Below are positions 21,717 to 38,292 of a stretch of DNA of 38,292 nt, one piece after another. Origin of the DNA: a virus; the IMG/VR virus record IMGVR_UViG_3300009128_000056, positions 1 to 38,292 of that record; one strand, written 5' to 3'. The notes under the pieces were generated by a model. That model made no database searches, was not told where the DNA came from, and worked only from the letters and a program-made list of their open reading frames with translations. The number at the start of each line of letters is the position of its first letter. Position 1 is the stretch's first letter. The translations under genes and the position numbers were made by a program.

Positions 21717-22811
21717 ATGATGGAAATACTAGGAAATACTATTAACGGACCAACTTATGAAAGTGCAGTTGAATTGCCTTTCGCAATGAATGTGGTGTTT
21801 AGAACAGAGATTATTGATGATTTTGAAGATGGTGCAGTTGATGCTCAATGGGTTACAGGAACAGGTTTAACTGTGGCAGAGACTAATGGAGCTTTATACA
21901 ACACGAACTTTCCAAATAATGGTTATGTGGAACTTAATTTAGATTTAAGCACTCTTGAAATAGGGGAAGGGATTTTTATGCCTGTTATGTTTCCAATGAG
22001 ACATGACGGAGGCGGTGGAGGTGCAGCTAATTCAGGTGTAGCTGTAAGTGTTGGAGGAACAACTATATTTTCTGCTGATAATTCTAGCGGAGTAGGCACT
22101 GCTTATAATGCATCTGCAGGAGCTTTAACTGTTTTTAAAATTGCGTCTGACCAATATGTTGCTACTGGAGACAAAGGTACTGATACTGCAGACAATAAAA
22201 GATGGAGAACTTTAAATTTAGGTGGCGCTCCTAAGATAAGATTAACTACTACAACTAATGTGGCTTCAGGAAAAGGAGGTTTTGTTATTCCGTTTTGTAT
22301 GAAATTTGCATCAGATAGCAATACGTTATGGTCTCCTCATGGAAGTTTTGCTTTGGGTTCAACTTTGCACCCTAACGGATGGGACAATGGCTTAGATAGT
22401 CGCTTTTGGGTAGGTTCGTATTGTGATACTACAGTTAATGCTACTTTGTTTTCCAAGGATCTAAAAGGTTTTAGAAGAGTTATGACTTGTGGATGTTTCA
22501 GGCAAGCTAATGATAAATTGACAATCTTCTCCGGAGATCATGTTGATAGTCAAGCCGAGGCTAACGATTCAAATCCTGATGCTACCGCGTATATAGTTAA
22601 ATTAACAATGGATGCAGATGGCAACTCGTATGACGCAACAGTTAATACTTGGGTGACTAGTGTAGCAACTCCGATGACAACTGCAACAGCAACAAATACG
22701 AGAGACACATCAACGTGGGATGGAGATTTAGTTATTGGTGTGGATAACGGAAACGTTTCAACAGATCACCACAACTGTGGATGGTTTTTAACAAGAGACT
22801 TTGACTTATGA
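21717..22811 (+). CDS. Tail fibre/adhesin-like protein
   Basis: 364 residues (a second ATG directly follows the first). Starts with a short helical 'MEILGNTINGP' region then beta-rich, including a Gly/Ala-rich loop near 98-106 (GGGGGAANSG). Ends with Cys and His-rich 'GNVSTDHHNCGWFLTRDFDL'. Last gene before the lysis-like cassette, so probably an outer tail protein. No family recognised. Confidence 0.6.
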   Translation: MMEILGNTINGPTYESAVELPFAMNVVFRTEIIDDFEDGAVDAQWVTGTGLTVAETNGALYNTNFPNNGYVELNLDLSTLEIGEGIFMPVMFPMRHDGGGGGAANSGVAVSVGGTTIFSADNSSGVGTAYNASAGALTVFKIASDQYVATGDKGTDTADNKRWRTLNLGGAPKIRLTTTTNVASGKGGFVIPFCMKFASDSNTLWSPHGSFALGSTLHPNGWDNGLDSRFWVGSYCDTTVNATLFSKDLKGFRRVMTCGCFRQANDKLTIFSGDHVDSQAEANDSNPDATAYIVKLTMDADGNSYDATVNTWVTSVATPMTTATATNTRDTSTWDGDLVIGVDNGNVSTDHHNCGWFLTRDFDL

Positions 22812-24379
22812 AATTATGGACTGATAAGTTGGCAGAGAAATATAAATCAATGACTGGTAAGAATATATCTACAATATTACATGATTGGTTAGATTCTAAG
22901 TGGTCGCCTTTTACAGTTTGGTATAGATTAGACTGGCGTAAGAACGAATTGAAAGATGTTAGTAAATGGTTGAAGAAACAATTAAATAATCCCCACATTG
23001 ACTTGTTAGAAGAAGTCCAAAAGATCAAACATAAAGACCCTGACAAAACTGTGGTCTATGCATTGAGATTGGTTAAGAAGCTTTTAAAATATAAGCCAGA
23101 CATAGAAACTTGGAAAACTTGGGAATATTGGGCTGAAGCTTATGAAGCTTTAAATAAAGGTTTTGACGATTGTCTAGCCTGGGATACGAAATTACTTAAT
23201 TCCGATGGAGCGTTAGTTAATATAGAGGATGTGGCTATAGGCGAAAAAATCATTGGCAAAGGTGGTAAATTAAAAACCGTAATTAACAAATGGGCGAAGG
23301 GGAAAAAAGCAGTTTATGAATTAGAATTAAATAATGGTTCACAAATTTTGGCAACGGAAAAGCATAAATTCATATTGGCAGATGGTTCTCAGAAGCCTTT
23401 AGACGCGCTCAGAATAGGGGATGCACTGAGGCAGATAAACCAAATTTCCTTGGATTCAGAGGAACCGTTAGACTTAGATTACTGGTACTTGAAAGGTCTT
23501 TTTGTAGCTGATGGTTGGACTGATAAGGAACACAAATCCATATTTATATCTGGTAAAGATGGCCACCCCAAAGAGAAGCAAAAGGAATGGGTAAAGCGCT
23601 ATTGTGAAAGTAATAATATCAAATATACTTGGAATGAGCGTTATATTGTTGTAAAGAGTAAAGAATTATATCTGGACTTTAGAAAATGTGGTCGGCGAGC
23701 CATTGAAAAGCATGTTGATACATTACCGCAAAATCCTGAGAATGTCAACGCACTTATTGAGGGCTTAAAAGCGGATGCACATATTAGAAAACGTTGGCAG
23801 ACTGAAGAGATCGTGTTTGCAACAATTTCTGAAAAGCTAAAGAATCAAATTCGTGTCTTGTTAAAAATGCAAGGTAAAGAATGTTATACTTCTCTAGTAC
23901 AACCAACTAGAACTCAATTTGGAAACAATCCAATATGGAGAATTAGAGTTAGATCGTTATCTAAACCTTTGAAACTAATTGGAATCAGAAAATCAATAGA
24001 AACTGATGTATATGACATAGAAGTCGAAGATCATGAAATCTATCTGCCATCAAGTGATTGTGTAGTGCATAATTGTGATGGTGGTGCGGTCTTGTTATTG
24101 GTGCTGTGTCGTTTGGCAGGAGTTCCAGCTAATCAAATAAGAATACAAGGCGGCCCTGTTATTGATCCTAACAATCCTAAGAAAACTGTTGGGCATTTGT
24201 ACGTTCGATACAGGGCAAATAAGGACTTTAAATGGTATCATCTTGATTGGTGTTATCATCAAGATTCAAGAGCTTTAGATCAAAGATTTAACACCTTAGA
24301 AAGTGATTTAAGGTATCATAAGGAGTGGTGGTCGTGCAATGACTGTCGTGGCTATAAGAAATTCAAATTAAAAGCTTAA
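22808..24379 (+). CDS. Transglutaminase-like cysteine peptidase (likely endolysin), intein-split
   Basis: 523-residue precursor; removing the 301-residue intein (122-422) leaves 222 residues. The extein joins as DD-CDGGAVLLLVLCRLAG, the nucleophile motif of transglutaminase-like enzymes, followed by 'GHLYVRYRANKDFKWYHLDWCY', which supplies His and Asp. The intein therefore sits directly before the catalytic Cys, so the precursor should be inactive until spliced. Archaeal viruses such as psiM2 carry endolysins of this superfamily (pseudomurein endoisopeptidases). A holin-like gene follows, so lysis is the best guess; a virion-associated peptidase is the alternative. Confidence 0.78.
   Translation: MKLWTDKLAEKYKSMTGKNISTILHDWLDSKWSPFTVWYRLDWRKNELKDVSKWLKKQLNNPHIDLLEEVQKIKHKDPDKTVVYALRLVKKLLKYKPDIETWKTWEYWAEAYEALNKGFDDCLAWDTKLLNSDGALVNIEDVAIGEKIIGKGGKLKTVINKWAKGKKAVYELELNNGSQILATEKHKFILADGSQKPLDALRIGDALRQINQISLDSEEPLDLDYWYLKGLFVADGWTDKEHKSIFISGKDGHPKEKQKEWVKRYCESNNIKYTWNERYIVVKSKELYLDFRKCGRRAIEKHVDTLPQNPENVNALIEGLKADAHIRKRWQTEEIVFATISEKLKNQIRVLLKMQGKECYTSLVQPTRTQFGNNPIWRIRVRSLSKPLKLIGIRKSIETDVYDIEVEDHEIYLPSSDCVVHNCDGGAVLLLVLCRLAGVPANQIRIQGGPVIDPNNPKKTVGHLYVRYRANKDFKWYHLDWCYHQDSRALDQRFNTLESDLRYHKEWWSCNDCRGYKKFKLKA
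23171..24073 (+). other. Intein with in-frame LAGLIDADG endonuclease
   Basis: 301 residues from Cys1 (CLAWDTKLLNSDG) to the terminal His-Asn, with Cys as the +1 extein residue. Block B is 'GSQILATEKHKFIL' (T..x.H) and the C-terminal blocks are 'DVYDIEVEDHEIYLPSSDCVVHN'. Between them two dodecapeptide motifs occur: 'YLKGLFVADG' (precursor residues about 227-236) and 'LIEGLKADA' (about 315-323), both with the acidic residue kept. It is therefore a full-length homing intein of standard in-frame design. Confidence 0.9.
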
Positions 24380-25823: not shown

Positions 25824-26129
25824 ATGCCAGAGCCGAAAAAAGAAGTTTTTTCAATAAGACTGAGTACTAAGTCTATACGACTTTTGCAGATTAGAGGTTT
25901 TTTAAATAAATTGAGAAGATCTACTTGGAAGAAAGGAGAACTTAGCTTGAGTCATTATGTTAATGATTTGATTGCTAAAGATTGTTTAAAATTGATTGAC
26001 GGTAAAAGCATAGAAGAAGTACGTTTAATTGAAGAGTTGCAATCAGCCCAATCTGAAAGAGATAAATTAGAATGTAAAATAGCGAAAATTGCAGGAGAAC
26101 TGAGCAGTATTAAAAATGGTAAGAATTAA
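25824..26129 (+). CDS. Ribbon-helix-helix-like transcription regulator
   Basis: 101 residues. Residues about 6-14 form the expected beta strand (EVFSIRLST), followed by a helix with Arg/Leu, a basic loop, and a second helix 'LSLSHYVNDLIAKDCLKL' (about 38-55), the strand-helix-helix layout of RHH/CopG-type DNA binders. The last 30 residues are a coiled coil (EELQSAQSERDKLECKIAKI). First gene rightward of the divergent control region with GAGGTC upstream, next to repeated operator-like sites. Function inferred from fold pattern and position. Confidence 0.6.
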   Translation: MPEPKKEVFSIRLSTKSIRLLQIRGFLNKLRRSTWKKGELSLSHYVNDLIAKDCLKLIDGKSIEEVRLIEELQSAQSERDKLECKIAKIAGELSSIKNGKN

Positions 26130-26310
26130 GCATAAAAATCAATTTGCAGCTGTGAAGAGTGAAGAAAGCTGCCCTTTGTGTAGTCAACTTTACGATTTAG
26201 GAGATCATATTAAAACTCATATAACTAGTAAGCTTTACTGTTGTAGACATTGTTTTCTAAGCACTTCAAGTATTAAAATCTTAATTAAACAATTAAGAGG
26301 GGGAAAATAA
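26116..26310 (+). CDS. Small zinc-finger protein
   Basis: 64 residues overlapping the previous gene by 14 bases. 'CPLCSQLYDLGDHIKTHI' gives a C2H2-type ligand set and 'CCRHC' a second pair. Probably nucleic-acid or protein binding in the early region. Confidence 0.6.
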   Translation: MVRIKHKNQFAAVKSEESCPLCSQLYDLGDHIKTHITSKLYCCRHCFLSTSSIKILIKQLRGGK

Positions 26311-26311
26311 G

Positions 26312-26527
26312 ATGAAACCAGATTATGTAAGTTTTAAAGTAGAACATGGCGAACATTTGGAAGGTATAGGAAAAAAGTTCGAGATATTATGTTTTGATAA
26401 CAATACTAAAACATTCAGTTTTATGGGCTTTTCAGGCTCTAAAAAGGACATATTGGAACTTTTGGATAATGCTAAGAGTATAGTGGCCAGATTAGATAAG
26501 TGCTACGAAACTACAACCAAGGCTTAA
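26312..26527 (+). CDS. Hypothetical early protein
   Basis: 71 residues. Mixed alpha/beta, with a C-terminal helix 'KKDILELLDNAKSIVARLDK'. No family recognised. One base after the zinc-finger gene, within the same early operon. Confidence 0.55.
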   Translation: MKPDYVSFKVEHGEHLEGIGKKFEILCFDNNTKTFSFMGFSGSKKDILELLDNAKSIVARLDKCYETTTKA

Positions 26528-26560
26528 AAGTAGGTGTTCAATGTAAACATTAAACGAAAG

Positions 26561-26570
26561 CTTTAAATAT
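26561..26570 (+). promoter_or_regulatory. TATA promoter, CTTTAAATAT type
   Basis: CTTTAAATAT lies about 38 bases before the start at 26600, which has an AGGTG Shine-Dalgarno. Same TATA class as at 34376 and 34588 and different from the late type. An AGGTGTTCAATGT element lies just upstream (26532-26544). Confidence 0.6.
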
Positions 26571-26599
26571 GAGCTTTACTTACCTGTAGATTAGGTGAT

Positions 26600-26992
26600 A
26601 TGATGGAATCAAAAGATAATTTTGAAATGCCGAGTTCTGATAAAATTGCAGAAGTTCTAGTGACGTTTCCTGAGAAGTTAATGGCTAAGGAAACTTGTTT
26701 AGTCGAGCTAGCTGAAAGGGTCTCTGATTTGGGTTTGTTAATTAATGCTATGGAAGAGAAGACTTATCAAGAAGTGGAAGAAGAAATTGATGCAGAAGAT
26801 AAAAAGAAATATTCTAACGAAGCTAAACGAAAGGCAGAAACTAAGAAACGTTTAGGCTTAAATGACCGATACAAAGACACAATTAAAGAACTGGATAAAA
26901 AGAAAGCTGAGTTAAAGGCTCTGGAAATTGAGACTAAATATATGTCTAAATTATTTAGAAGTTTCTTGGCTTTAGCTAATTTAAAGAGGTGA
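26600..26992 (+). CDS. Coiled-coil early protein
   Basis: 130 residues (a second ATG at 26603 is equally possible). Helical throughout with strong coiled-coil character, residues about 30-120, rich in Lys/Glu. Proteins of this build are common in front of annealing-type recombination genes in phages, but no firm family is recognised. Confidence 0.6.
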   Translation: MMESKDNFEMPSSDKIAEVLVTFPEKLMAKETCLVELAERVSDLGLLINAMEEKTYQEVEEEIDAEDKKKYSNEAKRKAETKKRLGLNDRYKDTIKELDKKKAELKALEIETKYMSKLFRSFLALANLKR

Positions 26993-26996
26993 AACT

Positions 26997-27125
26997 ATGA
27001 TATATAAAAACCTGAAACTAAAAGGAATTAAGTTAGATTCACAAGGTAACGTCTCTGAAGCTTGTGGATTTATTGTTGTGAAAAAGAACTTTGCAAGAGA
27101 ATTGGGGATTGAAGGTGTTTGTTAA
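26997..27125 (+). CDS. Small hypothetical protein
   Basis: 42 residues with AGAGGTG upstream. Reads MIYKNLKLKGIKLDSQ and ends in GIEGVC. No family recognised. Confidence 0.5.
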   Translation: MIYKNLKLKGIKLDSQGNVSEACGFIVVKKNFARELGIEGVC

Positions 27126-27204
27126 ATGTGATAATTGTCTTGAAATTTATAATAGAATGAGGTGTTTAATAAATGCAAAAAAAATTAATAGAAAGAAAAA
27201 TTGA
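27109..27204 (+). CDS. Possible truncated small zinc-ribbon gene
   Basis: 31 residues from a TTG at 27109, overlapping the end of the previous gene and the start of the next. Contains VKCDNC and a later RC, like the first half of a CxxC...CxxC ribbon, then runs into Lys/Asn residues encoded by the AT-rich start of the methyltransferase gene. May be an older gene cut by arrival of that module. Weak evidence. Confidence 0.3.
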   Translation: MKVFVKCDNCLEIYNRMRCLINAKKINRKKN

Positions 27205-28561
27205 ATTTGAATATGTAAAAAGCGTAATAGGCTCTGGTTATGAGGTTAAATTAGCAGATTTGGCATTAAGAGATAAAGTAGCATATAGAGCAGCAAGAAA
27301 GAATATGCAAATACATTCAGCAATAATTTTAAAAATAGATGATGAATTTTCTGGTTTTTTTACTTTTGAAATTAATCATAATGCTAAAGAGTTTTGTTTA
27401 CTTCAGTCAGCTATGGAATTAGATAGAAAAGATAAAGAAATATATAGCCAAATGGTTAAAGAAATAATAAAACAAAATACATATAGGTATCCTATGATAA
27501 TGACTGTTAGTACAAAACACGACTTAGAATGTCCAAAAGTTTTCGAAGCTATTGGATTTAAAACATACCTTAATTTGAGTGGTTATGCTTACATGGTTTA
27601 TGGAACTTTAGAGCAGGTTAGGATTAAAAGATTGGCTCATGCAACAATGACAAATGCATGGACTACAACTCGTTCAGATTGGTTAAAAATAAAAAGAGAA
27701 TGGAATGAAAAAATAGAAGAAGCAGGAAAAAAACATAATATTTTAAACCCAAAATTTGCCTCAAGAGATGGATGTTGGCAAGGTAAAAACGGATTTTCAA
27801 ATATTGTATTATCTAATAGAGAAATAAAAGATAATAAAATAATACATAATAAGGGAAAATCTTTTAATGGAAATGCTTCAGTGTTAGATCCGTGTGCTTG
27901 TGAAGTTATACTTAGATTTTTTATGCCCACTAATGGAAAAAGAGTTTATAATCCTTTTGGTGGAGGTGTCCAGTTTGGTTTTGTATCTGCAAGTTATGGT
28001 TACGATTATGTTGCAAGTGAAATAAGAAAAAATCAATGTGATGTAAATAATAAATTATGTAGTGATTTAAAAGGCAATGCTAAATGGATAAAGTCGGATA
28101 GTTCAAAATATGAACCGGAAGGTATGTTTGATTTATGTTTTATGTGTCCACCATATTATAAAGTTGAAAAATATATAGATTATGATGGTGTTATTCCAGA
28201 AGGAGAATTAAATAATAAAAAAACTTATGAAGAATTTAGAGATTCATTATTTGAAGGTTATAAAAAAGCAATAAAACATCTAAAAGATAATTGTTTCTTC
28301 GTTGTTATGACTGGTGATTCTAGAGATAAGTATGGTGGTTATTATGGTTGTGAAGCAGAACATGAGTTGTTCTTTAAAAATCAAGGATTACATATTTATA
28401 ATAAAATTGTATATTTAGAATGTGAGTTTACAAGGTTAGCTCATGCAAAAAGGATTTTAGATTATAGGAAGTTTCCTAAAAGAGAACAAAAGATATTGGT
28501 TTTTTATAAAGGGGATATTAAAAAGATAAAAGAACTATATCCGCCAATAGGTAGATTATGA
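27173..28561 (+). CDS. GNAT-like domain fused to DNA methyltransferase
   Basis: 462 residues. The N-terminal 150 look like an acetyltransferase fold (GNAT), ending 'VFEAIGFKTYLNLSGYAYMVYG'; phage Mu Mom, which alters DNA adenine, has this fold. The C-terminal part is an amino-methyltransferase: 'YNPFGGGVQFGFVSASYG' (about 258-275, SAM-binding region) and 'LCFMCPPYYKVEKY' (catalytic motif IV with CPPYY in place of DPPY, about 320-333). The target base is unknown. The gene is more AT-rich than its neighbours, using AAA, ATA and AGA heavily, and overlaps the next gene by four bases. It may take part in base hypermodification with that gene; inference. Confidence 0.72.
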   Translation: MQKKLIERKIEFEYVKSVIGSGYEVKLADLALRDKVAYRAARKNMQIHSAIILKIDDEFSGFFTFEINHNAKEFCLLQSAMELDRKDKEIYSQMVKEIIKQNTYRYPMIMTVSTKHDLECPKVFEAIGFKTYLNLSGYAYMVYGTLEQVRIKRLAHATMTNAWTTTRSDWLKIKREWNEKIEEAGKKHNILNPKFASRDGCWQGKNGFSNIVLSNREIKDNKIIHNKGKSFNGNASVLDPCACEVILRFFMPTNGKRVYNPFGGGVQFGFVSASYGYDYVASEIRKNQCDVNNKLCSDLKGNAKWIKSDSSKYEPEGMFDLCFMCPPYYKVEKYIDYDGVIPEGELNNKKTYEEFRDSLFEGYKKAIKHLKDNCFFVVMTGDSRDKYGGYYGCEAEHELFFKNQGLHIYNKIVYLECEFTRLAHAKRILDYRKFPKREQKILVFYKGDIKKIKELYPPIGRL

Positions 28562-29367
28562 TGAAAAAATATCTTAATAAAATAGAATTAAGTAAAAACT
28601 CTAGGGGGTGCTGGGATTTAGACCCATTTAAAGGGTGTGTAAATACTAGATTAAATAATGGTACTGGTTGTTATGGTATTTGCTACGCAGTAAAAATATC
28701 AAAATCTAAAGGTTATAATTTCAGTGATGTGGTAAGAAGATATTTCATAAGTGATAAACATTTTTTTGAGATAGTGCAGAAACTCAAAAAAATTCCATTT
28801 GTTAGATTAGGTGTTATGTGTGACCCTTCATTTGATTGGGAGCATACATTAAATATTGTTGATAAAATAAGACCATACCAAAAAAATATTATTATTGTTA
28901 CAAAACACATAAAACGATTGAATGATGAACAAATTAAAAGATGTAAGGGATTAATAATTAATACATCTATTTGTGCGTTAGATAATATCAAAGATAGAAA
29001 AAAAAGATTATATGAATATAATAGATTGAAAAAATATTGTAAATCTGTATTAAGAGTTAATACAGCAAGTTATAAAGATAATAATTTAGAGGAAATACAA
29101 ACTGAATTGTTAAATAATGATGATGTTATTGATAATGTTTTAAGATTTCCTAAAAATCATATTCTTGTAAAAAAAGGAACAATTAATATTAAACATCATA
29201 AATTTCTTAATAGTTTTGTTTATGCTAGTAAACATAAAGACAGCGTATTTTTTGGTCATTGCTACAAGTGTAAAGATTTATGTGGAGCAACATCAGCATT
29301 ACAAAGTGAACTATTAGATTATTTAAAACTAAAGCAGGGGGTGAGTGCTGATTCCTCCCAACCATAA
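28558..29367 (+). CDS. Cys-rich Gp37/Gp68-like, possibly radical-SAM protein
   Basis: 269 residues. Cys18, Cys27, Cys38 and Cys42 (GCVNTR...GTGCYGICYA) form an iron-sulfur-type cluster of spacing Cx10Cx3C, unlike the standard Cx3Cx2C but close to phage Gp37/Gp68 (DUF5131-like) proteins. 'VRLGVMCDPSFDWEHTLNIV' (about 80-100), 'NIIIVTKHIKRLNDEQI' and 'GLIINTSICALDN' fit a TIM-barrel. A second Cys cluster 'HCYKCKDLC' lies near 240. The stop codon is in the loop of the hairpin at 29345-29388, and the last residues (GVSADSSQP) are encoded by it. Likely partner of the methyltransferase. Confidence 0.6.
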   Translation: MMKKYLNKIELSKNSRGCWDLDPFKGCVNTRLNNGTGCYGICYAVKISKSKGYNFSDVVRRYFISDKHFFEIVQKLKKIPFVRLGVMCDPSFDWEHTLNIVDKIRPYQKNIIIVTKHIKRLNDEQIKRCKGLIINTSICALDNIKDRKKRLYEYNRLKKYCKSVLRVNTASYKDNNLEEIQTELLNNDDVIDNVLRFPKNHILVKKGTINIKHHKFLNSFVYASKHKDSVFFGHCYKCKDLCGATSALQSELLDYLKLKQGVSADSSQP

Positions 29368-29388
29368 ATGGTTGGGTATCCTCAGCAC
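29345..29388 (+). repeat. Hairpin H1 closing methyltransferase module 1
   Basis: Outer stem GTGCTGA/TCAGCAC, internal loop TTCCT/TATCC, inner stem CCCAACCA/TGGTTGGG, loop TAAA. The stop codon of the preceding gene is the TAA of the loop (29365-29367). Loop and internal loop are identical to hairpin H3 at 33651 while both stems differ by compensating changes. Resembles the subterminal hairpins of IS200/IS605 elements, but no transposase is present. Confidence 0.8.
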
Positions 29389-29394
29389 ATTTTT

Positions 29395-29529
29395 ATGAGT
29401 AAAAAGCTAATAGTTTATTTTGATGAGAATGACGACCTTGAGATGGCTCTAGAGCTTATTCAAAAACTTATCGCTGAAGGTTATACTTCAGGTATTGATC
29501 CGCATTTTGAAATAGTGGAGGATGAATAA
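29395..29529 (+). CDS. Small acidic protein
   Basis: 44 residues from ATG 29395, directly after hairpin H1 and without a Shine-Dalgarno. Acidic (MSKKLIVYFDENDDLEMALE...). No family recognised. Upstream of the annealing protein gene with a two-base gap. Confidence 0.5.
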   Translation: MSKKLIVYFDENDDLEMALELIQKLIAEGYTSGIDPHFEIVEDE

Positions 29530-29531
29530 AA

Positions 29532-29942
29532 ATGGAACAAAAAGAAATCGAAGATACTTTCAAAGAATTGTCTCTAGTTAATTGTGACGTTGTTAAAAAA
29601 GGGAATCTAAATTATGTTAGTTGGGCTGAAGCATGGAAACAACTTAAACTAAAATTTCCTAAAGCTCGCTACCTAGTTTATGAAAATGAACAAGGTATGC
29701 CTTATTTTGCAGATTCAACTGGGGGATTTGTTAAAGTTAGTGTTATAGTAAACGAACTTCATCATGTGGTTTTTTTACCCATAATGGATTTTAGAAATAA
29801 AAGCTTAAAACAGGACGAAATAACTACTTTTGATATTAATAAAGCAATCCAGCGAGCTTTAACTAAAGCCATTGCAATGCATGGTTTAGGTTTATATGTT
29901 TACAATGGAGAAGATTTGCCTGAGAAAGACACAGAGGTTTAG
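29532..29942 (+). CDS. Sak3/DUF1071-type single-strand annealing protein
   Basis: 136 residues with GGAGG upstream. 'LNYVSWAEAWKQLKLKFPKA' near the N-terminus, 'VVFLPIMDFRNKSLK' in the middle, and 'TTFDINKAIQRALTKAIAMHGLGLYVYNGEDLPE' at the end match the DUF1071 (Sak3) family of phage annealing proteins. It anneals complementary single strands in viral recombination and replication. No exonuclease partner is obvious, although 30779 encodes a nuclease-like protein nearby. Confidence 0.85.
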   Translation: MEQKEIEDTFKELSLVNCDVVKKGNLNYVSWAEAWKQLKLKFPKARYLVYENEQGMPYFADSTGGFVKVSVIVNELHHVVFLPIMDFRNKSLKQDEITTFDINKAIQRALTKAIAMHGLGLYVYNGEDLPEKDTEV

Positions 29943-29945
29943 ATA

Positions 29946-30095
29946 ATGGAAATAGAACGAGATAGTATAACAAAGAAAAATAACTTTCAGATAACAATTA
30001 TTAACAAACGCAAAGGTGACACTAAAACTGAAAGCATATATGCTGGCACGGACGAAGCCGAGGCGCTATTAGAATATTTATTAGACACAGAATAA
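29946..30095 (+). CDS. Small hypothetical protein
   Basis: 49 residues, ATG three bases after the previous stop. Beta strands followed by an acidic C-terminal helix (DEAEALLEYLLDTE). No family recognised. Confidence 0.55.
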   Translation: MEIERDSITKKNNFQITIINKRKGDTKTESIYAGTDEAEALLEYLLDTE

Positions 30096-30107
30096 TGAGG
30101 TGTTACT

Positions 30108-30371
30108 ATGGATGATGAAACGAAAAAGTTTATTGAGAAACTGAACAATGATTTCAACCAATTTGCAGATGAAGGTGCCGAGTTAGAAGCTATGGTGGAA
30201 TTAAAACAGGCAAGAGATAAAATATTAGTTGCTCATGTTGTTGCATTACAAGAGCTTTTAGTTGAGAAGAAAGTTTTTACTAACGAAGAATTTGGAGATA
30301 AGTTAAAACAGTTTTTTAAGAAAGCTGAAGATGTAAAAGAATTTATAGGTAAACTAGATCAAGGAGCGTGA
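30108..30371 (+). CDS. Hypothetical helical protein
   Basis: 87 residues with GAGGTG upstream. Helical and acidic (MDDETKKFIEKLNNDFNQF...). Follows the annealing protein, so a role in recombination or replication is possible but not shown. Confidence 0.55.
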   Translation: MDDETKKFIEKLNNDFNQFADEGAELEAMVELKQARDKILVAHVVALQELLVEKKVFTNEEFGDKLKQFFKKAEDVKEFIGKLDQGA

Positions 30372-30372
30372 T

Positions 30373-30618
30373 TTGTTGAAAAAGATTTTAATTAATGGTT
30401 ATAAACTGTTAAACTCTGATGAAGTTAAATTGCTTGTTGAAACTCCATTATTCTATAGCTTCGAAGTCAAACAGAAATATTCGGTTCTGTTGTATAAGGG
30501 TAGCAAGTCTGGAAAGTTCAGTTGTACTTGTAACTATGGTAGTATGCAAGGAACAAACGGCGCAGTTTGTCAGCACGTTTTTGGATGTATGTTAAAATTA
30601 ATGGGGGTAAGCAAATGA
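30373..30618 (+). CDS. SWIM zinc-finger protein
   Basis: 81 residues, started by TTG at 30373 or 30376 after AAGGAG. The C-terminal half has CTCNYG...AVCQHV, the CxC...CxH pattern of SWIM zinc fingers, which bind DNA or protein. In archaea and phages SWIM proteins often accompany recombination genes. Overlaps the next gene by four bases. Confidence 0.72.
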   Translation: MLKKILINGYKLLNSDEVKLLVETPLFYSFEVKQKYSVLLYKGSKSGKFSCTCNYGSMQGTNGAVCQHVFGCMLKLMGVSK

Positions 30619-30782
30619 AAAACAAAGTACTAGATAAATTGGTTGGTAGTCACAATGTAAATTATCTACCATTCAAAGATAGTTATTATGAATTTTTAAC
30701 ACTTTTAGCTAACTTGGCAACAGAATATGAGAAAACCAAACCTCACAAAGAAATACCAGACGGAGTTATAACTACAGAATGA
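30615..30782 (+). CDS. Small hypothetical protein
   Basis: 55 residues from ATG 30615, preferred over 30567 because GGGGGT lies just upstream and the longer form overlaps the SWIM gene. No family recognised. The stop overlaps the next start (ATGA). Confidence 0.55.
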   Translation: MKNKVLDKLVGSHNVNYLPFKDSYYEFLTLLANLATEYEKTKPHKEIPDGVITTE

Positions 30783-31174
30783 AACCATACGATAAAGCAG
30801 TTTTAATGGCTAGAGAATTTCAAGCAGGCAAAATCTATCCTATTAATTGCGTTAGGATTCATAACAGTAAAGAAACTATGGCGCATTGGATAATGAAATG
30901 TTTAATAGCTAAAGGTTTAACTGAACGTAAACAACAATGGATGACGGAATTTGATTTCCGTGGTAACGTTTGTGATGTTTGGAATTTAACTCAAGATACA
31001 ATATTAGAAGTTGAAACTCAACCTAGTAAACAATCGGTTGAAAAAAAGAAAAGACAATACAAAGAACACACTGATTTGTTTGTATTTGATTTAAAGGATA
31101 AAAAACAATTCAAGAAGATTTGTGACATACTGGATGAATTTAAGGATAAACTCATGGAGGAAATGGGGTTATGA
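30779..31174 (+). CDS. PD-(D/E)XK nuclease-like protein
   Basis: 131 residues. 'GNVCDVWNLTQDTILEVETQPSKQSVEKKKRQY' (about 61-93, quoted in parts: D67, then E-V-E near 77-79, then K/Q) fits the D...ExE/K core of restriction-like nucleases, followed by 'HTDLFVFDLKDKKQF'. Such enzymes resolve or trim DNA ends and would suit the adjacent annealing protein. Fold call is tentative. Confidence 0.5.
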   Translation: MKPYDKAVLMAREFQAGKIYPINCVRIHNSKETMAHWIMKCLIAKGLTERKQQWMTEFDFRGNVCDVWNLTQDTILEVETQPSKQSVEKKKRQYKEHTDLFVFDLKDKKQFKKICDILDEFKDKLMEEMGL

Positions 31175-31437
31175 TGGTAAGACAGACTTCATTATTGGCT
31201 TATGAAGAGTTAAAATTAAGTGGTGAACTAGGCAAAAGACAGAAAGAAGTATATGATTACTTGTTTAATAATCCTGACTCTTCTGACTTTGAGATGGCTA
31301 TTGGTTTAGGCTATAATGACAGAAATGCGGTAGCTCCTAGGCGTAAGGAGTTGTTAGATGGTAAATGGATTGAGAGTGTTGATAAAAGAAAATGTACTAT
31401 AACTGGCAGGTTGGTTCATGTTTGGAGGTTAGTTTGA
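31171..31437 (+). CDS. Winged-helix DNA-binding protein
   Basis: 88 residues (start at 31171 or 31174). 'LGKRQKEVYDYLFNNPDSS' followed by 'FEMAIGLGYNDRNAVAPRRKELLD' and 'WIESVDKRKCTITGRLVHVW' shows a helix-turn-helix plus wing of the kind found in phage and archaeal regulators. Overlaps the previous stop; TGATG overlap with the next gene. Confidence 0.65.
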   Translation: MMVRQTSLLAYEELKLSGELGKRQKEVYDYLFNNPDSSDFEMAIGLGYNDRNAVAPRRKELLDGKWIESVDKRKCTITGRLVHVWRLV

Positions 31438-31643
31438 TGTTGCCTATTGTTATTGTTCAGTGTAACAAATGTGGAAAGCGACAGAAGTTTCAACCTACTA
31501 AGTTGACTTATAATAGTTATTGGGGTAACAAACGTAAGAAGTGTATTAAGTGCGATAAGTATATTCGGGTAAAAAACTGTATTGTTAGAAATTTAACCGA
31601 TAATGTTAAAGCTCACGATTTCGTAAATTATAAAATAACATAG
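31437..31643 (+). CDS. Zinc-ribbon protein
   Basis: 68 residues from the ATG at 31437, which overlaps the previous stop; an earlier start at 31392 would overlap the winged-helix gene. Cys pairs CNKC (9-12) and CIKC (about 36-39) with a late Cys. Typical small archaeal zinc ribbon. Confidence 0.65.
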   Translation: MLPIVIVQCNKCGKRQKFQPTKLTYNSYWGNKRKKCIKCDKYIRVKNCIVRNLTDNVKAHDFVNYKIT

Positions 31644-31654
31644 AAGGGTTCAAA

Positions 31655-31753
31655 ATGGTTAACACATTGGCCGCCAAGGCCAGGAGTGAAAGACGCTATC
31701 AAAATACTTCACACTGCCTTCGCAGATGTGTGCGGAAAGGAGGCGAAAGGGAA
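31655..31753 (+). other. GC-rich structured leader of membrane gene
   Basis: Unusually GC-rich for this genome. Contains TGGCC-GCCAA-GGCCA (31664 region) and CACAC-TGC-CTTC-GCA-GAT-GTGTG hairpins, then an AGGAGG site before the ATG at 31754. Could be an RNA element or a leader controlling translation. An open frame runs through from 31655 but has no protein-like character before 31754. Confidence 0.35.
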
Positions 31754-31924
31754 ATGAACAGTTGCACAGTTAAAGGTTGTTTTATAATGCTGGCAAGCGT
31801 CTTCGGATGTGGAATAACTGCAATGGTAATTAAAGGATTTAGTTTTAAAATTGCGATTTGGTTGGTGGCAGTATTAGTAGTTATGTTGATGATTGGAGGT
31901 TTGATAAAATGGAATGGGAACTGA
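31754..31924 (+). CDS. Small two-span membrane protein
   Basis: 56 residues from 31754, chosen for its AGGAGG site. Two hydrophobic segments: 'CFIMLASVFGCGITAMVI' and 'IAIWLVAVLVVMLMIGGLI'. No family recognised. Confidence 0.55.
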   Translation: MNSCTVKGCFIMLASVFGCGITAMVIKGFSFKIAIWLVAVLVVMLMIGGLIKWNGN

Positions 31925-32025
31925 CACAAATGGAATGGGAACATTTAATGAAATTGATTGAATTAAAGAGAGAGAAACCAGAAGAATACAAAAAGTTACT
32001 AAAAGATATTGCAGAAATTGTGTGA
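31909..32025 (+). CDS. Small charged protein
   Basis: 38 residues overlapping the previous gene by 16 bases. Helical (MEWELTQMEWEHLMKLIELK..., ending KDIAEIV). GGAGG at 31895-31899. No family recognised. Confidence 0.45.
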   Translation: MEWELTQMEWEHLMKLIELKREKPEEYKKLLKDIAEIV

Positions 32026-32075
32026 TATAAGTAGTATTGCTAAAAATGTTGCTGAAAAAATGAGGGGAGATTGAA

Positions 32076-32216
32076 ATGTTAATAACTTTAAGTTATATGT
32101 GGTTAAGCCTTTACTTTGGCACAATTACATTTAGTTGGTGGTTTGGATTGTTAGCCATAATCATAGATATGTGTGTTGGTGGCAATTTAATAAAAATAGT
32201 TAAGGGGTTAAAATGA
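32076..32216 (+). CDS. Small membrane protein
   Basis: 46 residues, with GGGGAG upstream. Aromatic hydrophobic segment 'YMWLSLYFGTITFSWW' then 'GLLAIIIDMCVGG'. Overlaps next start by four bases. Confidence 0.5.
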   Translation: MLITLSYMWLSLYFGTITFSWWFGLLAIIIDMCVGGNLIKIVKGLK

Positions 32217-32350
32217 CAATGGGAAAAATAAACAGATGGTTACTGAAACTAGAAATAAACTCAGTAGAAAGACAACTTAAATCATACCAAAAGAAAATTA
32301 AAGAAGGGAAAATAGTCTTAAAAAAACTGAAAAAAGAATATGATAGATGA
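32213..32350 (+). CDS. Small basic coiled-coil protein
   Basis: 45 residues, Lys-rich (KKIKEGKIVLKKLKKEYDR). Overlaps neighbours by ATGA at both ends, suggesting translational coupling. No family recognised. Confidence 0.5.
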   Translation: MTMGKINRWLLKLEINSVERQLKSYQKKIKEGKIVLKKLKKEYDR

Positions 32351-32541
32351 CACTTACTAAAACTTGCAAGGACTTTTTTCACACTTTTTACCAGTGTGGG
32401 CTGAGCCCCTATTTTTTCCTCTTTATTATCTTCTTTTTTTACGATACGTTGACTAACACTGCTGCCGAGAGGGGTGGCAGAAACTGTGAAAGAACTGTTC
32501 TTTCTCTGATTTTGACAGTGTGTGTTATTGGTCTTGTCTAA
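32347..32541 (+). CDS. Possible small membrane protein
   Basis: 64 residues. ATG overlaps previous stop. Hydrophobic segments 'PYFFLFIIFFFY' and 'TVLSLILTVCVIGLV'. The DNA also has hairpins and long pyrimidine runs (see terminator entry), so it may be non-coding. The coupled start favours a gene; the odd composition argues against. Confidence 0.4.
   Translation: MTLTKTCKDFFHTFYQCGLSPYFFLFIIFFFYDTLTNTAAERGGRNCERTVLSLILTVCVIGLV
32380..32417 (+). terminator. Hairpins followed by T run, terminator-like
   Basis: CACACT (32380) pairs with AGTGTG (32393-32398); GGGC-TGA-GCCC follows (32398-32408), then CTATTTTTT. Similar to an intrinsic terminator. A further CTGCC/GGCAG hairpin lies at 32462-32480. 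Lies inside the open frame 32347-32541. Confidence 0.4.
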
Positions 32542-32555
32542 ATAAGGTTTCAATC

Positions 32556-32693
32556 TTGAAAGAATTAAAAGAAACAAAAAAGAAAGTTTTACAAGAATTA
32601 GTTGAATGGTTAGATGCTAATCCTGGGAAGGAAGTAAGAGATTATTTGTTAACGCTGGGAGAATTTAAAGAAGATGTCCAAAGTAATGACTGA
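32556..32693 (+). CDS. Small acidic helical protein
   Basis: 45 residues from a TTG start at 32556 (upstream AAGG at 32544). Charged helix 'KELKETKKKVLQELVEWLD' then 'EVRDYLLTLGEF'. No family recognised. Start codon choice uncertain. Confidence 0.4.
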   Translation: MKELKETKKKVLQELVEWLDANPGKEVRDYLLTLGEFKEDVQSND

Positions 32694-32716
32694 ACAACAT
32701 TAAAGGAGGTTTAAAA

Positions 32717-32893
32717 ATGACATCCTCTAAACCCACTAAAGTGGGTAGTTTCCACTCTCAAGAAAAAGAAAGAAAAATGGCATACATTAACGAGCAAGAA
32801 GGAAAAGATGTATTTGAATATTCTGTCTTTGGAAGTCCTAATCAGAAGATAGGACAGTTTGCACAAACTAAACTGGGTGATTTCAATGCTTGA
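32717..32893 (+). CDS. Small protein whose 5' end contains hairpin H2
   Basis: 58 residues with AGGAGG upstream. The first 20 residues (MTSSKPTKVGSFHSQEKERK) are encoded by the H2 hairpin region; an in-frame ATG at 32777 (MAYINEQEGKDV...) may be the original start. Its stop overlaps the methyltransferase start at 32886. No family recognised. Confidence 0.5.
   Translation: MTSSKPTKVGSFHSQEKERKMAYINEQEGKDVFEYSVFGSPNQKIGQFAQTKLGDFNA
32731..32746 (+). repeat. Hairpin H2, left of methyltransferase module 2
   Basis: ACCCAC-TAAA-GTGGGT, flanked by CATCCTC on the left and TTTCCACTC on the right. Shares the TAAA loop and CCCAC stem with H3 but not the exact internal loop. May be the left end of a 0.95 kb unit ending at H3. 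Confidence 0.6.
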
Positions 32894-33701
32894 AATCAAT
32901 CAAGTCTATAATATGGATTGCATAGATGGATTAAAACAGATTCCAGATAATTCAATAGATTTAGTTTTTACAAGTCCTCCATACAATATGCGTTTAAGAG
33001 TGAGAAATGGACAATATACAGAAAGAGAAAAAGGAGAACATTTCAGTAAGAAATATGCACATTTTGACGATGCTTTACCTTTAGAAGATTTTTATAAATT
33101 TCATAAAAAATGTATTAAAGAAATGTTAAGGGTTTCTAAAATCATCTGTTATAATTTTCAAATAGTTACTGGGAGTAAAGAAGCATTTTTTAGATTAATT
33201 GGTGATTTTAGCAAAGAGATTAAGGATATTTTAATATGGGATAAAGGTAATGGGCAACCTGCTATGAACCAAAAGGTAACAAATGCTTGTTACGAATTTA
33301 TTTTAGTTTTAGAATCTGATGGTAATAAAGGAAGGATGATAAGAAATGCAACATTTGAAAGAGGAACATTTGATAATATTTTAAGAATAGGCAGACCTAA
33401 AAAGATAACCAAAGAACATAATGCTGTTTTTCCAATAAATTTAGCAAAAAAGATTATTAAAAACTTTTCTTCTAAAGGAGATATAGTTTTAGACCCTTAT
33501 ATGGGTTTGGGAACTGTTGGAGTAGCTTCTAAACAACTCAATAGGAATTACATAGGATTTGAAATTAATAAAGAATATGTGGAAATAGCACAGAAAAGAT
33601 TAAGTCAATCTGTGTTGTTTCCTCTTGATACTAAACAAGAAGGAGGTAACGGCATTCCTCCCACTAATAAATTAGTGGGTATCCTGCCTAAAATTTTATG
33701 A
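32886..33701 (+). CDS. Beta-class DNA methyltransferase (N6-A or N4-C)
   Basis: 271 residues from the ATG at 32886 (an in-frame ATG at 32859 overlaps the upstream gene more). Motif IV TSPPYN at residues 29-34 precedes motif I 'DIVLDPYMGLGTVGVASKQL' at about 199-218, the order of beta-class enzymes such as CcrM-like and SPPY types. It methylates DNA, probably to protect the virus from host restriction. No restriction partner seen. The C-terminal 20 residues (GGNGIPPTNKLVGILP...) are encoded by hairpin H3, so they look added. Confidence 0.88.
   Translation: MLEINQVYNMDCIDGLKQIPDNSIDLVFTSPPYNMRLRVRNGQYTEREKGEHFSKKYAHFDDALPLEDFYKFHKKCIKEMLRVSKIICYNFQIVTGSKEAFFRLIGDFSKEIKDILIWDKGNGQPAMNQKVTNACYEFILVLESDGNKGRMIRNATFERGTFDNILRIGRPKKITKEHNAVFPINLAKKIIKNFSSKGDIVLDPYMGLGTVGVASKQLNRNYIGFEINKEYVEIAQKRLSQSVLFPLDTKQEGGNGIPPTNKLVGILPKIL
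33651..33688 (+). repeat. Hairpin H3 closing methyltransferase module 2
   Basis: GGCA/TGCC outer stem, TTCCT/TATCC internal loop, inner stem CCCACTAA/TTAGTGGG, loop TAAA. Same architecture and identical loops as H1 at 29345. It lies inside the 3' end of the methyltransferase reading frame. Confidence 0.8.
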
Positions 33702-33922
33702 AAAAGAAACAAGAAAGTAATGCGAGTAGAAACTGTGGAATCTTGGGAATAATATTTTCTTTATTAGTTCCATTAGTTGGTTTAATCTTAGGTATTATAG
33801 GATTAAGCATAAAAAAGCATTCAAAACATAGAACGAGAGATATAGCATTAAATGTAATTGCTCTTTGCTTATTTCCAGTAGGCTGGGCATTAGGTTTTGC
33901 GATTTTGGCTGCAATGTTTTGA
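33698..33922 (+). CDS. DUF4190-like two-span membrane protein
   Basis: 74 residues, start overlapping the previous stop. 'CGILGIIFSLLVPLVGLILGIIGLS' and a second span 'IALCLFPVGWALGFAILAAMF' separated by a basic loop (KKHSKHRTRD). The pattern is like DUF4190 membrane proteins. Role unknown. Confidence 0.6.
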   Translation: MKKKQESNASRNCGILGIIFSLLVPLVGLILGIIGLSIKKHSKHRTRDIALNVIALCLFPVGWALGFAILAAMF

Positions 33923-35101: not shown

Positions 35102-37543
35102 ATGCTTGATATCGCACAATATGTTAAACAAAAGAATGTTAAGGTTTTAGTTAAGTATTACTTTAAATTTAATTTAACTCCTAAACAAGAAGAAATAGTT
35201 CGACTGATAGCTTATGCTGAACATCCTAGAGCATGTATTAATGCTATGACTAGATATGGTAAGTCTAGGTGCGTGGCTATTGGAGTTGCATTATATATTC
35301 TATTTCATAAAGATAAACGTATCGCTATTATAGCTCCTCAAGAAGAGCAAGCCTCTATTATTAGAAATTACATAGCTGAACATATTGTCTGCTGTCCAAT
35401 TTTGGCTGGTTTAGTTGATATAGATCGGGACAATTCTATTGAAAGATTAAAACGAGAAACAAGCAGAAGGCGTTGGACATTTAAGAATGGTTGTCAGTTA
35501 TTAACTATTTCTGCTCATGGTGAAGCCACTAGATTAATGGGATTTGGTGCTGATCTTGTCATATGTGTACCTAAAGGTCAAAGAGTTATGACAAATAAAG
35601 GGGAAAAGGATATAAAAAACATAGTTGATAAAAAATTAAAATTAAAAGTTTTATCTTATAATACAGACACTCAAAAATTAGAATATCAACCTATTAAGAG
35701 ATATTTTAAGAATGCTAGAAAAGATAAGATTTTAGAAATAGAAACTAATTTGGGCAGTTTTAGAGTAACTGAAAATCATCCTGTATTTGAGGAAAAAAGA
35801 GGTTATATTGCCGCTAAAAAACTAAGGGAGAACGATAAGATATATAAATGCGTAACGACTTCTAAGAAAGATGCCAATAGTTATGTGCAATATTTGCAGA
35901 ACCCCATTTTACAAGAGACCGAGCCATATAAAAAGGCAGAAGAATCAGAACTTAAATTTTTGCAGTCACAAATGCAGAGGAGACTGGCAGAAAGGAGAAA
36001 AAAATCCTATGTGGGGAGGTGGCAAGAAAGAAATATTGTGCAAAGAATGTGGAAGTTCTTTTTATGTAGATCCAAACACAAAGAAAAAAAGAGTGTTCTG
36101 TTCAGTAATTTGTCGTTCGCAGAATATCCAAAAGCAAGAAAAAAAACGTTTTTTGATTTCATGCGTATATTGTGGAAAGCAATTAAAGGTAATTCCTGCA
36201 ATGAAAGACACGAGACAATATTGTTCAAGAAAGTGTGCGAACAGAGGTCATTCAGAGAAAATGCTAATGGAGGGCAATCCTGTATGGAGGGGAGGGATAG
36301 GAAATCTTCCTTGGCCTCCAGAGTTCAATATAAAACTAAAGAGAAAAATCAAAAAAAGAGATGGAAATGTGTGTTTTCTTTGTGGGAAAACTGGAAAGCT
36401 TTGTGTTCATCATATAGATTACGACAAAAACAATTCTCAAGAAAACAATCTAATAACTCTTTGTGTGAGCTGTCACACAAGAACAAATTACAAAAGAGAA
36501 ATGTGGAAATCGCTACTATCAAATCAATTAAAAGTGTCAACACAAAAGACAAATATGTCTATAATTTAGAGATAGCAAACAATAATAATTATTTTGTAAA
36601 TGGTTTTCTAACACATAATTGTGATGAGAGCGCTAAAATAAGTAGAGAAGCTTATGCTAAAATAGTTAGAATGCTTGGAGATGACCCTGAGAATAGTGTT
36701 TTGATAGAGTTAGCTAACCCATGGGATATGGATAATAAATATTATGATCATTATGTTTCTGGCAGATTTTTAGTGATTCATGTTGGTTATAAAACTGCTA
36801 TTGAAGAAGGTAGAGTGACAGAGACCTTTATAGACGAGATGAGAGATGAATTAACGCCTATTGAGTTTACAGTTTTATATGAAAGTGTTTTTCCACCTGA
36901 AGCTGAAGATAGTTTATTTCGGTTAAAAGACATCAATAATGCAATAGAAAATAACTTTCTTTCTAGAGGAGATGGCATAATTGCCTGTGATCCTAGCGAT
37001 AAAGGTTTGGATTTTACTGTTATTATGTATGGTCATGAATCGGATGGCTTGTTTAAAGTTGAATATGTTTATCATGAACCTAAGAGTGACAATATGCAAA
37101 TAGTAAACCGCATTGTTAGGTTAGTTGATGAAAAGGAAGATGTGGCTAAGATTAATGTTGATTGTATAGGTATAGGTGCAGGCATAGTGAGTCGTTTGAA
37201 TGAGATATATCCTGATGGCATCATCCAAGTAAACGCGTGTCACTTTGGAGAAGCTCCCGAAGAAGCGACTACTGTGCAAGCCAAGTTACCAACTTCTAGC
37301 AGGAAACGCTTTATGAATAAAAAAGCAGAACAATACTTTAGGTTACAAAATTTGATGGTTGAGAAAAGGGTTGACATACCTAACAACATCACTTTAAGAT
37401 CTGAGTTAATGAAAATGAAGTGGGACAAGACTTTAAGCGAAAAGATTAAAATAGTTGACCCTGAAGATAAGAGCCCAGATTTTGCAGATTGCCTAGTTTA
37501 TTTTGTTTGGTCTGCAAATAAAGAAGTCGTGGTGATGTGGTAA
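35102..37543 (+). CDS. terL: Terminase large subunit, intein-containing
   Basis: 813-residue precursor; after removing the intein (155-506) the mature motor has 461 residues. Walker A-like 'MTRYGKSR' lies at about 49-56. Walker B 'DLVI-CDESA' is split by the intein between I and C, so the ATPase is dead until splicing. The nuclease shows 'ACDPSDKGLDFTV' (about 628), 'INVDCIGIGAG' (about 685) and 'PDFADCLVYF' (about 792). It pumps and cuts DNA into the prohead. Ends one base before the next start. Confidence 0.93.
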   Translation: MLDIAQYVKQKNVKVLVKYYFKFNLTPKQEEIVRLIAYAEHPRACINAMTRYGKSRCVAIGVALYILFHKDKRIAIIAPQEEQASIIRNYIAEHIVCCPILAGLVDIDRDNSIERLKRETSRRRWTFKNGCQLLTISAHGEATRLMGFGADLVICVPKGQRVMTNKGEKDIKNIVDKKLKLKVLSYNTDTQKLEYQPIKRYFKNARKDKILEIETNLGSFRVTENHPVFEEKRGYIAAKKLRENDKIYKCVTTSKKDANSYVQYLQNPILQETEPYKKAEESELKFLQSQMQRRLAERRKKSYVGRWQERNIVQRMWKFFLCRSKHKEKKSVLFSNLSFAEYPKARKKTFFDFMRILWKAIKGNSCNERHETILFKKVCEQRSFRENANGGQSCMEGRDRKSSLASRVQYKTKEKNQKKRWKCVFSLWENWKALCSSYRLRQKQFSRKQSNNSLCELSHKNKLQKRNVEIATIKSIKSVNTKDKYVYNLEIANNNNYFVNGFLTHNCDESAKISREAYAKIVRMLGDDPENSVLIELANPWDMDNKYYDHYVSGRFLVIHVGYKTAIEEGRVTETFIDEMRDELTPIEFTVLYESVFPPEAEDSLFRLKDINNAIENNFLSRGDGIIACDPSDKGLDFTVIMYGHESDGLFKVEYVYHEPKSDNMQIVNRIVRLVDEKEDVAKINVDCIGIGAGIVSRLNEIYPDGIIQVNACHFGEAPEEATTVQAKLPTSSRKRFMNKKAEQYFRLQNLMVEKRVDIPNNITLRSELMKMKWDKTLSEKIKIVDPEDKSPDFADCLVYFVWSANKEVVVMW
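35839..35850 (+). promoter_or_regulatory. TATA promoter inside the intein for the HNH gene
   Basis: GATATATAAATG, with TATATAAA starting at 35841, 30 bases before the HNH ATG at 35871. Spacing copies that of the free-standing HNH gene at 12667 (31 bases). No Shine-Dalgarno follows. Confidence 0.55.
35871..36569 (+). CDS. HNH homing endonuclease nested +1 in the TerL intein
   Basis: 232 residues in the frame one base ahead of terminase. Three Cys-rich zinc fingers lead: CNIC...FCSHKC (about 6-35), CKEC...FCSVIC (about 57-82) and CVYC...YCSRKC (about 97-121). Then a GNPVWRGG linker and a canonical HNH nuclease at about 155-215: 'KKRDGNVCFLCGKTGK', 'LCVHHIDYDKNNSQENNL', 'ITLCVSCHTRTNYKREMW', with the His-His at 180-181 and Cys pairs at 168/171 and about 202/205. 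An in-frame TAA at 35853 shows it cannot be a fusion to upstream code. Presumably drives intein spread. Confidence 0.88.
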   Translation: MPIVMCNICRTPFYKRPSHIKRQKNQNLNFCSHKCRGDWQKGEKNPMWGGGKKEILCKECGSSFYVDPNTKKKRVFCSVICRSQNIQKQEKKRFLISCVYCGKQLKVIPAMKDTRQYCSRKCANRGHSEKMLMEGNPVWRGGIGNLPWPPEFNIKLKRKIKKRDGNVCFLCGKTGKLCVHHIDYDKNNSQENNLITLCVSCHTRTNYKREMWKSLLSNQLKVSTQKTNMSII

Positions 37544-37898: not shown

Positions 37899-38292
37899 AT
37901 GAACTTTGAAACAAAGATGAAAGTAGACGAAAACGGAGATATGTATTCGGATGCAGTATATGCAGAGAAGAATGTAGTATTGAAATTGAAAGATGGCAAA
38001 GAAGCAGTTGTAGGTGTGCAGCCAAGTTATAGCGTGCCAAACGTAATTAAGAAGGAGAACATAGGCATTTTGTATAGCTACTTAAACGAACAAAAGGATT
38101 ACTTAGTAGAGAGACATAACAAAGCTAAGCAAGTAATTGCTGACACTGAAAAGTTTAGCTTAGAAGGTTTAAGTGATGAGATGGTGAAGTTTAACCAGAT
38201 AGTTAGCGCTGCGAATAAGAAGGGTGCAGACAAGGAAAGAATTAAACACTTAGATACAGTTGCTAAGAATGTTTTAATGAACTTTGAAGCTA
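37899..38292 (+). CDS. Coiled-coil hypothetical protein, runs across the circular join
   Basis: Start at 37899 with AAGGAGG upstream; the 5' 394 bases are here and the 3' end is at 1-205, giving 159 residues in all. Beta-rich first 60 residues then a helical, charged part 'KDYLVERHNKAKQVIADTEK'. No family recognised. Last gene of the terminase-side operon, followed by the YkgJ-like gene. Confidence 0.85.
   Translation, partial: MNFETKMKVDENGDMYSDAVYAEKNVVLKLKDGKEAVVGVQPSYSVPNVIKKENIGILYSYLNEQKDYLVERHNKAKQVIADTEKFSLEGLSDEMVKFNQIVSAANKKGADKERIKHLDTVAKNVLMNFEA
38174..38292. repeat. Terminal direct repeat, right copy (contig overlap)
   Basis: Identical to bases 1-119. See the left copy for interpretation; one copy should be removed when the circle is closed. 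Confidence 0.95.

Follow-up and report, generated by a model that had tools for sequence, protein, structure and literature searches.

The 38,292-nucleotide (nt) virus record IMGVR_UViG_3300009128_000056 (IMG/VR), analysed here over its full length as the window, contains two similar hairpins, H1 (29345-29388) and H3 (33651-33687), which very probably are the right ends of transposons, the stretch closed by H3 (module 2, 32717-33701) being a non-autonomous element of the IS200/IS605 type. Module 2 is a complete but non-autonomous unit consisting of a left end (LE), a remnant of a Y1 transposase, a DNA methyltransferase gene and a right end (RE) with H3. Its features, together with the flanking open reading frame (ORF), are as follows:

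32705-32720, + strand: left flank, with a GGAGG ribosome-binding-like site and the ATGA target (start codon of the interrupted gene)
~32716-32758, + strand: LE matching model R2; ATGA followed by CATCCTCTAA, hairpin ACCCAC-TAAA-GTGGGT (32731-32746) and TAGTTTCC
32777-32893, + strand: C-terminal remnant of a Y1 (HUH) TnpA, in frame with the LE-encoded peptide (ORF 32717-32893, 58 amino acids)
32886-33701, + strand: cargo, a phage-type N4/N6-type DNA methyltransferase of 271 amino acids (PF01555, 4e-36; phrog_67, 3.5e-56)
33639-33701, + strand: RE with hairpin H3 and final ATGA (model R1, 75.3 bits, E ~1e-18)
33698-33922, + strand: downstream gene with its ATG supplied by the RE

Hairpin ends and the structure of module 2

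Both hairpins were found as the initial annotation had described them, with an outer stem, a TTCCT/TATCC internal loop and an eight-pair inner stem which starts with CCCA and carries a TAAA loop. The covariance model of the RE (R1, trained on 38 distinct hairpin sequences) matches H1 and H3 only, the next best place in the window reaching 10.7 bits, and the predicted folding energies as single-stranded DNA are -14.3 kcal/mol (z -4.0) for H1 and -8.8 kcal/mol (z -2.4) for H3. The earlier statement that the stems change in pairs was borne out by the 38 copies: their covariation score is 0.615 versus 0.128 after shuffling and at most 0.082 when the partner columns are slid by one to three, and 134 compensated double changes stand against a single one-sided change (G-T), which supports selection on the RE structure. 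As G-U pairs are usually tolerated in RNA helices, the near absence of G-T/G-U pairs from the RE stems points to a DNA hairpin rather than an RNA, and would be consistent with single-strand peel-and-paste transposition.

We searched public viral sequences and a collection of genomes with the pattern TTCCTCCCA...TGGGTATCC, and among many chance matches there was yet one distinct class with a shared architecture (27-32-nt span, four-pair variable stem, TAAA or TGAA loop, outer stem and ATGA downstream). The RE motif was present in 10 of the 371 genomes of one phylum and its reversed control in none, while a control scan of 650 kb of viral loci bearing the Sak annealing protein gave neither RE nor LE matches. 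Genes for TnpA, IscB/IsrB and methyltransferases were found beside the RE, which is the kind of association that a covariance-model search had been proposed to look for. H1 and H3 are right ends of a family of IS200/IS605-type elements. A separate RE-like family (GATAGATCACTCCCAATTCCTCCC...TTGTGAGGAA) was seen at other gene starts in Oligoflexaceae and viral contigs (loci L069, L096, L028, L041 and L015).

H3 had not been paired with a left end in the initial annotation, but a third hairpin (32731-32746) is part of the LE that belongs to it, and this LE starts 985 bases before the terminus of the right end. With 58.3 bits (E 3e-14) to model R2, trained on 16 sequences, it is the sole LE in the window, and it was also found in L174, L182, L135 and others. 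Module 2 has imperfect palindromes near both ends and no terminal inverted repeats, and the suggested resemblance to IS200/IS605 ends is strengthened by this pairing of RE with LE and by the Y1 TnpA of relatives. The initial annotation had also reported that no transposase is present, and so overlooked the remnant between LE and methyltransferase (32777-32890; hmmsearch, 5.5e-17). This covers the last ~38 codons, is ~90% identical over its length to intact TnpAs including that of L172, and has 90% nt identity over 94 nt with L025. Only positions 142-186 of the 187 of the Y1 HUH TnpA were found in the window and the HUH part is gone, so this copy cannot be autonomous, in line with the earlier idea of cargo units without a transposase of their own. 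IscB is absent from the modules of the window, unlike in ISC transposons, where the ends enclose an IscB/IsrB gene with its omega RNA.

The methyltransferase gene overlaps the stop of the TnpA remnant by 8 nt, and its final ~25 residues are encoded by the RE, with homology to phage methyltransferases stopping near residue 243-255. In the terminal ATGA the TGA is the methyltransferase stop and the ATG the start of the next gene. When the left and right flanks are joined, they give GGAGG-N7-ATGAAAAAG as the start of ORF 33698-33922 and read GGAGGTTTAAAAATGAAAAAGAAA, a normal gene start; the predicted empty site is GGAGGTTTAAAAATGA followed by AAAAGAAACAAG.

Relatives, boundaries and cargo genes

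Units with an LE, an intact Y1 TnpA, a cargo gene and the same RE were found in L172, L174, L182, L173/L181, L177 and L175, and a complete Y1 TnpA followed by a cargo gene also in L054 and in L179, the latter with probably degenerate cargo. The TnpA of these relatives falls in PF01797 (1.2e-34), and solved structures match it, that of ISHp608 among them, the Y1 HUH TnpA being found in L172, L174, L182, L177 and L175, and the second hairpin at the other end of the relatives begins ATGACATCCTC or ATGACATACTC. The arrangement of TnpA tail, methyltransferase and RE seen in the window is repeated in L020 and L189, and L031 combines a TnpA tail with an MT-A70 methyltransferase, although this locus starts inside the tail, with the left part unseen. 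The same RE adjoins IscB (RRXRR+HNH) in L022 and L122 and an IsrB-like gene in L043, which ties the family to the ISC transposons. A TnpA search of 50,697 phage records gave distant relatives only, with ~39% identity for the best among the matches listed, and exact LE pattern matches in viral contigs were few because LEs vary more than REs. The 35-kb virus contig IMGVR_UViG_3300005253_000032 (L012, L026) contains at least five REs, some of which close single-gene units of 246-312 bases.

In total, 29 LE-RE units of 195-2335 bases were delimited, including that of the window, with L012, L008 and L036 the least certain due to low LE scores. ATGA precedes the left ends (ATAA or GTAA in a second type) and the right ends finish with ATGA, rarely ATAA, after which the flanks differ. 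The second LE type (AATAACACCTTCCC; L005 4730-5444, L044, L121 and L026) has the target ATAA, a possible stop codon, with right ends in ATGA, and its copy in L121 is placed where a BadF-type gene ends; the left ATAA with right ATGA of L005, L044 and L121 would argue against target duplication. Copies within one genome match through the ATGA and then diverge, as seen for four copies in one metagenome-assembled genome (MAG) of Woesearchaeota (L049, L078, L130, L142), two in L033 and two in a Chlamydiae MAG (L082, L107), and when the flanks of L135 are joined, a stop/start overlap at ATGA is recovered. In 65% of cases (n=71) the ATG supplied by the RE starts an ORF at least 40 codons long, versus 38% for other ATGAs (p=8e-6). 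Among the 63 ORFs abutting an RE, a few of which may be non-coding, 27 have a ..SSx tail with the loop TAA nearly always as stop, and 20 a ..PPxxxxxGI.. tail, with the stop mostly the TGA of the terminal ATGA.

Of the 22 viral ORFs that abut an RE, 11 have a DNA-methyltransferase Pfam match (summed over Pfam families, with at most one match judged to fall on each protein) versus 2/100 other ORFs of the same contigs, a background which counts only the 25 commonest families and so is a lower bound (Fisher, 3e-8). The matches are to N6_N4, C5, Eco57I-like, MT-A70 and MTS, so that the cargos cover at least four methyltransferase families, with near-identical ends on unrelated genes; other cargos are PAPS-reductase-like (L038, and L039 by eye), radical-SAM-like (L042, weak; L175, by similarity), IscB/IsrB and small unknown ORFs. 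The RE of the window is 90.5% identical to that of L031 (MT-A70), 95.7% to that of L010 and 98.4% to that of L019, and its TnpA tail is 91% identical in L031, whereas the methyltransferase gene itself gave no alignment to these three loci. We read such near-identical REs around unrelated genes as a direct sign of cargo exchange. Relatives of the window methyltransferase in other viruses (55-61% identity) have neither the RE nor the RE-encoded tail, and the hairpin is absent from 18 loci carrying such relatives, which indicates that it belongs to the element and not to the gene. The recurrence of methyltransferases between the same ends looks like a mobile-cassette system which moves DNA-modification genes between viruses.

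Proposed mobile cassettes, alternatives and module 1

We put the probability at about 55% that the TnpB/IscB slot of IS200/IS605 elements has been taken over by an exchangeable DNA-modification gene, giving single-gene cassettes which splice cleanly into the ATGA stop/start junctions of viral operons, depend for their spread on a Y1 transposase acting in trans, and are exchanged as counter-restriction cargo among viruses, many of them probably infecting DPANN archaea. For module 2 itself, most likely a TnpA encoded elsewhere, on the host chromosome or in another element, would recognise the two hairpins in single-stranded form, cut the unit out and, as expected from what is known of the family, join it behind an ATGA. 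With both target and terminal ATGA acting as stop/start motifs, the upstream gene would be terminated and the downstream gene would keep its ATG, while the RE stops the cargo ORF with its loop TAA in one frame and its terminal TGA in another. In the window, the ribosome-binding site of the interrupted gene stands at the head of a series of overlapping ORFs (LE peptide and TnpA tail, methyltransferase, original gene), which may be translationally coupled. Most likely the methyltransferase would protect the virus genome against host restriction, and so favour retention of the element.

Several points weigh against the transposon reading of H1, H3 and module 2. The 38-kb window contains no intact TnpA, and several of the Pfam matches behind the methyltransferase count are weak. 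The left boundaries are modestly enriched in gene starts and stops, with a GGAG-like site before the left ATGA in 9/23 units (background 13%, p=0.002) and an ORF closed by it in 5/23 (background 8%, p=0.03). An empty site was not found for any unit among the fetched loci, the Sak relatives and the genus or family genomes of two chromosomal units, as the relatives examined are too distant. Finally, cargo could have been exchanged without transposition, through homologous recombination between the shared ends. The units would then no longer transpose in viruses, and co-infecting viruses would swap cargo at anchors formed by TnpA tail/LE and RE, for which the window and L031 provide an example: their TnpA tails are 91% identical over 66 nt and their REs 91% over 95 nt, and the methyltransferases in between are unrelated. 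Units with only a TnpA tail recur (window, L020, L189) and the genes of the window include one for a Sak annealing protein, but recombination alone sits badly with units that occupy various genomic positions and are bounded exactly by ATGA, with several copies per genome and with the intact TnpA of relatives, and we consider it unlikely.

The initial annotation had alternatively proposed a new 3' RNA element of modification genes, which could be a terminator, a stabiliser or a guide-RNA scaffold. The hairpins do lie mostly at the 3' end of genes and on the coding strand, with strong covariation of the stems, but G-U pairs are nearly absent and the Rfam scan of the window gave no match at the gathering score. 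The loci with hairpin-free methyltransferase relatives, the hairpins after IscB and small unknown ORFs, and the accompanying LE and TnpA also speak against an RNA function, making this explanation very improbable.

Of the two methyltransferase modules described, only module 2 fits the description fully. In module 1 the ORF closed by H1 is not a recognisable methyltransferase, and the methyltransferase-like gene is the one preceding it:

27173-28561, + strand: methyltransferase-like gene with the methyltransferase domain in the C-terminal half (phrog_498 DNA methyltransferase, 8.6e-39 over 226-458; PF01555, 9e-5)
28558-29367, + strand: ORF of 269 amino acids without family match, ending inside H1 with the tail ..VSADSSQP*
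29336-29398, + strand: RE with hairpin H1 and final ATGA (model R1, 75.0 bits, E ~1e-18)
29395-29529, + strand: small ORF with its ATG supplied by the H1 right end

By eye, the N-terminal half of the 27173-28561 protein resembles a GNAT acetyltransferase, and the Cys pattern GC..GC..CYA of the 269-amino-acid ORF recalls DUF5131/radical-SAM proteins. Family searches with this ORF gave no match, its relatives were none beyond the window's own contig, and an AlphaFold prediction without alignment gave a low-confidence fold that is unusable (predicted local distance difference test, pLDDT, 45). H1 is a full-strength RE with L008 and L012 as nearest neighbours, and a further point against the transposon reading is that the LE model detected no LE for module 1 on the + strand of 26,000-29,300 (E-value limit 5, filters off). 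Module 1 is most likely an older relative with a left end that is lost or unrecognised, so that the RE alone can still be identified. Somewhat less probable is that H1, rather than being a solo RE, marks the end of a separate, complete module with an LE too diverged for detection; LE types do vary (ATGAC.., AATAACACCTTCCC, AGTAACACAATCCC) around a model built from few sequences, and the LEs of L008 and L012 score only ~20 bits, against which stands the lack of any LE-like place in that search.

Elsewhere in the window, the ORF at the terminase position (35102-37543) contains an intein (PF14890, 1.1e-16, residues 163-506). Nested in this intein, in another frame of the same strand, is a 232-amino-acid ORF (35871-36569), which has Cys-rich motifs and weakly matches HNH (5.8e-4). 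It would be unusual for an intein to contain an endonuclease gene out of frame. A second intein (22808-24379; PF14890, 4e-11, with Hom_end_hint and LAGLIDADG) lies inside a 523-amino-acid protein. The 119-nt terminal repeats (1-119 and 38174-38292) are identical, suggesting a circular or complete viral contig.

Comparison with known systems

A 2019 survey of thaumarchaeal elements states that no composite transposons with passenger genes had been detected in archaea (PMC6563490). Our limited literature search, with most subscription journals outside it, turned up no account of methyltransferase cargo in IS200/IS605 elements, which is weak evidence that these IS200/IS605-derived, non-autonomous elements carry an unreported class of cargo. 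If true, an IS200/IS605 branch with rotating DNA methyltransferases would be a concrete route for viruses to swap modification genes, and the replacement of a guide-RNA nuclease by a methyltransferase as the factor that retains a transposon would become testable. The junction design, with ATGA on the way in, ATGA on the way out and stops in the RE, would explain entry into gene-dense viral operons without breakage.

IS200/IS605 elements are known for accessory genes that encode RNA-guided nucleases. With these elements (Y1 TnpA; IS608/ISHp608, ISDra2) the present units share the Y1 HUH TnpA in full-length relatives, the subterminal hairpins at both ends and, as the consistent unit boundaries suggest, probably also insertion behind a short fixed target; unlike them, they hold DNA methyltransferases or other single genes in the usual TnpB slot, and the window copy has a TnpA remnant only. 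The ISC transposons (IscB/IsrB), reportedly described in Kapitonov et al. 2016, are linked to the present units by the identical RE type beside IscB and IsrB-like genes in L022, L122 and L043, whereas the window units are without an RNA-guided nuclease. Palindrome-associated transposable elements (PATEs) and IS200-derived miniature inverted-repeat transposable elements (MITEs) are likewise non-autonomous units with IS200/IS605-type ends, but the present units have an intact gene between their ends and are found repeatedly with differing methyltransferases. DDE insertion sequences can also have methyltransferases as passengers. Mariner elements of giant viruses carry DNA methyltransferase passengers (PMC3627910). 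The Mariner and DDE elements resemble the present units in having a DNA methyltransferase as transposon passenger, in viruses too, and differ from them in their unrelated DDE transposase, double-strand mechanism and ends without hairpins.

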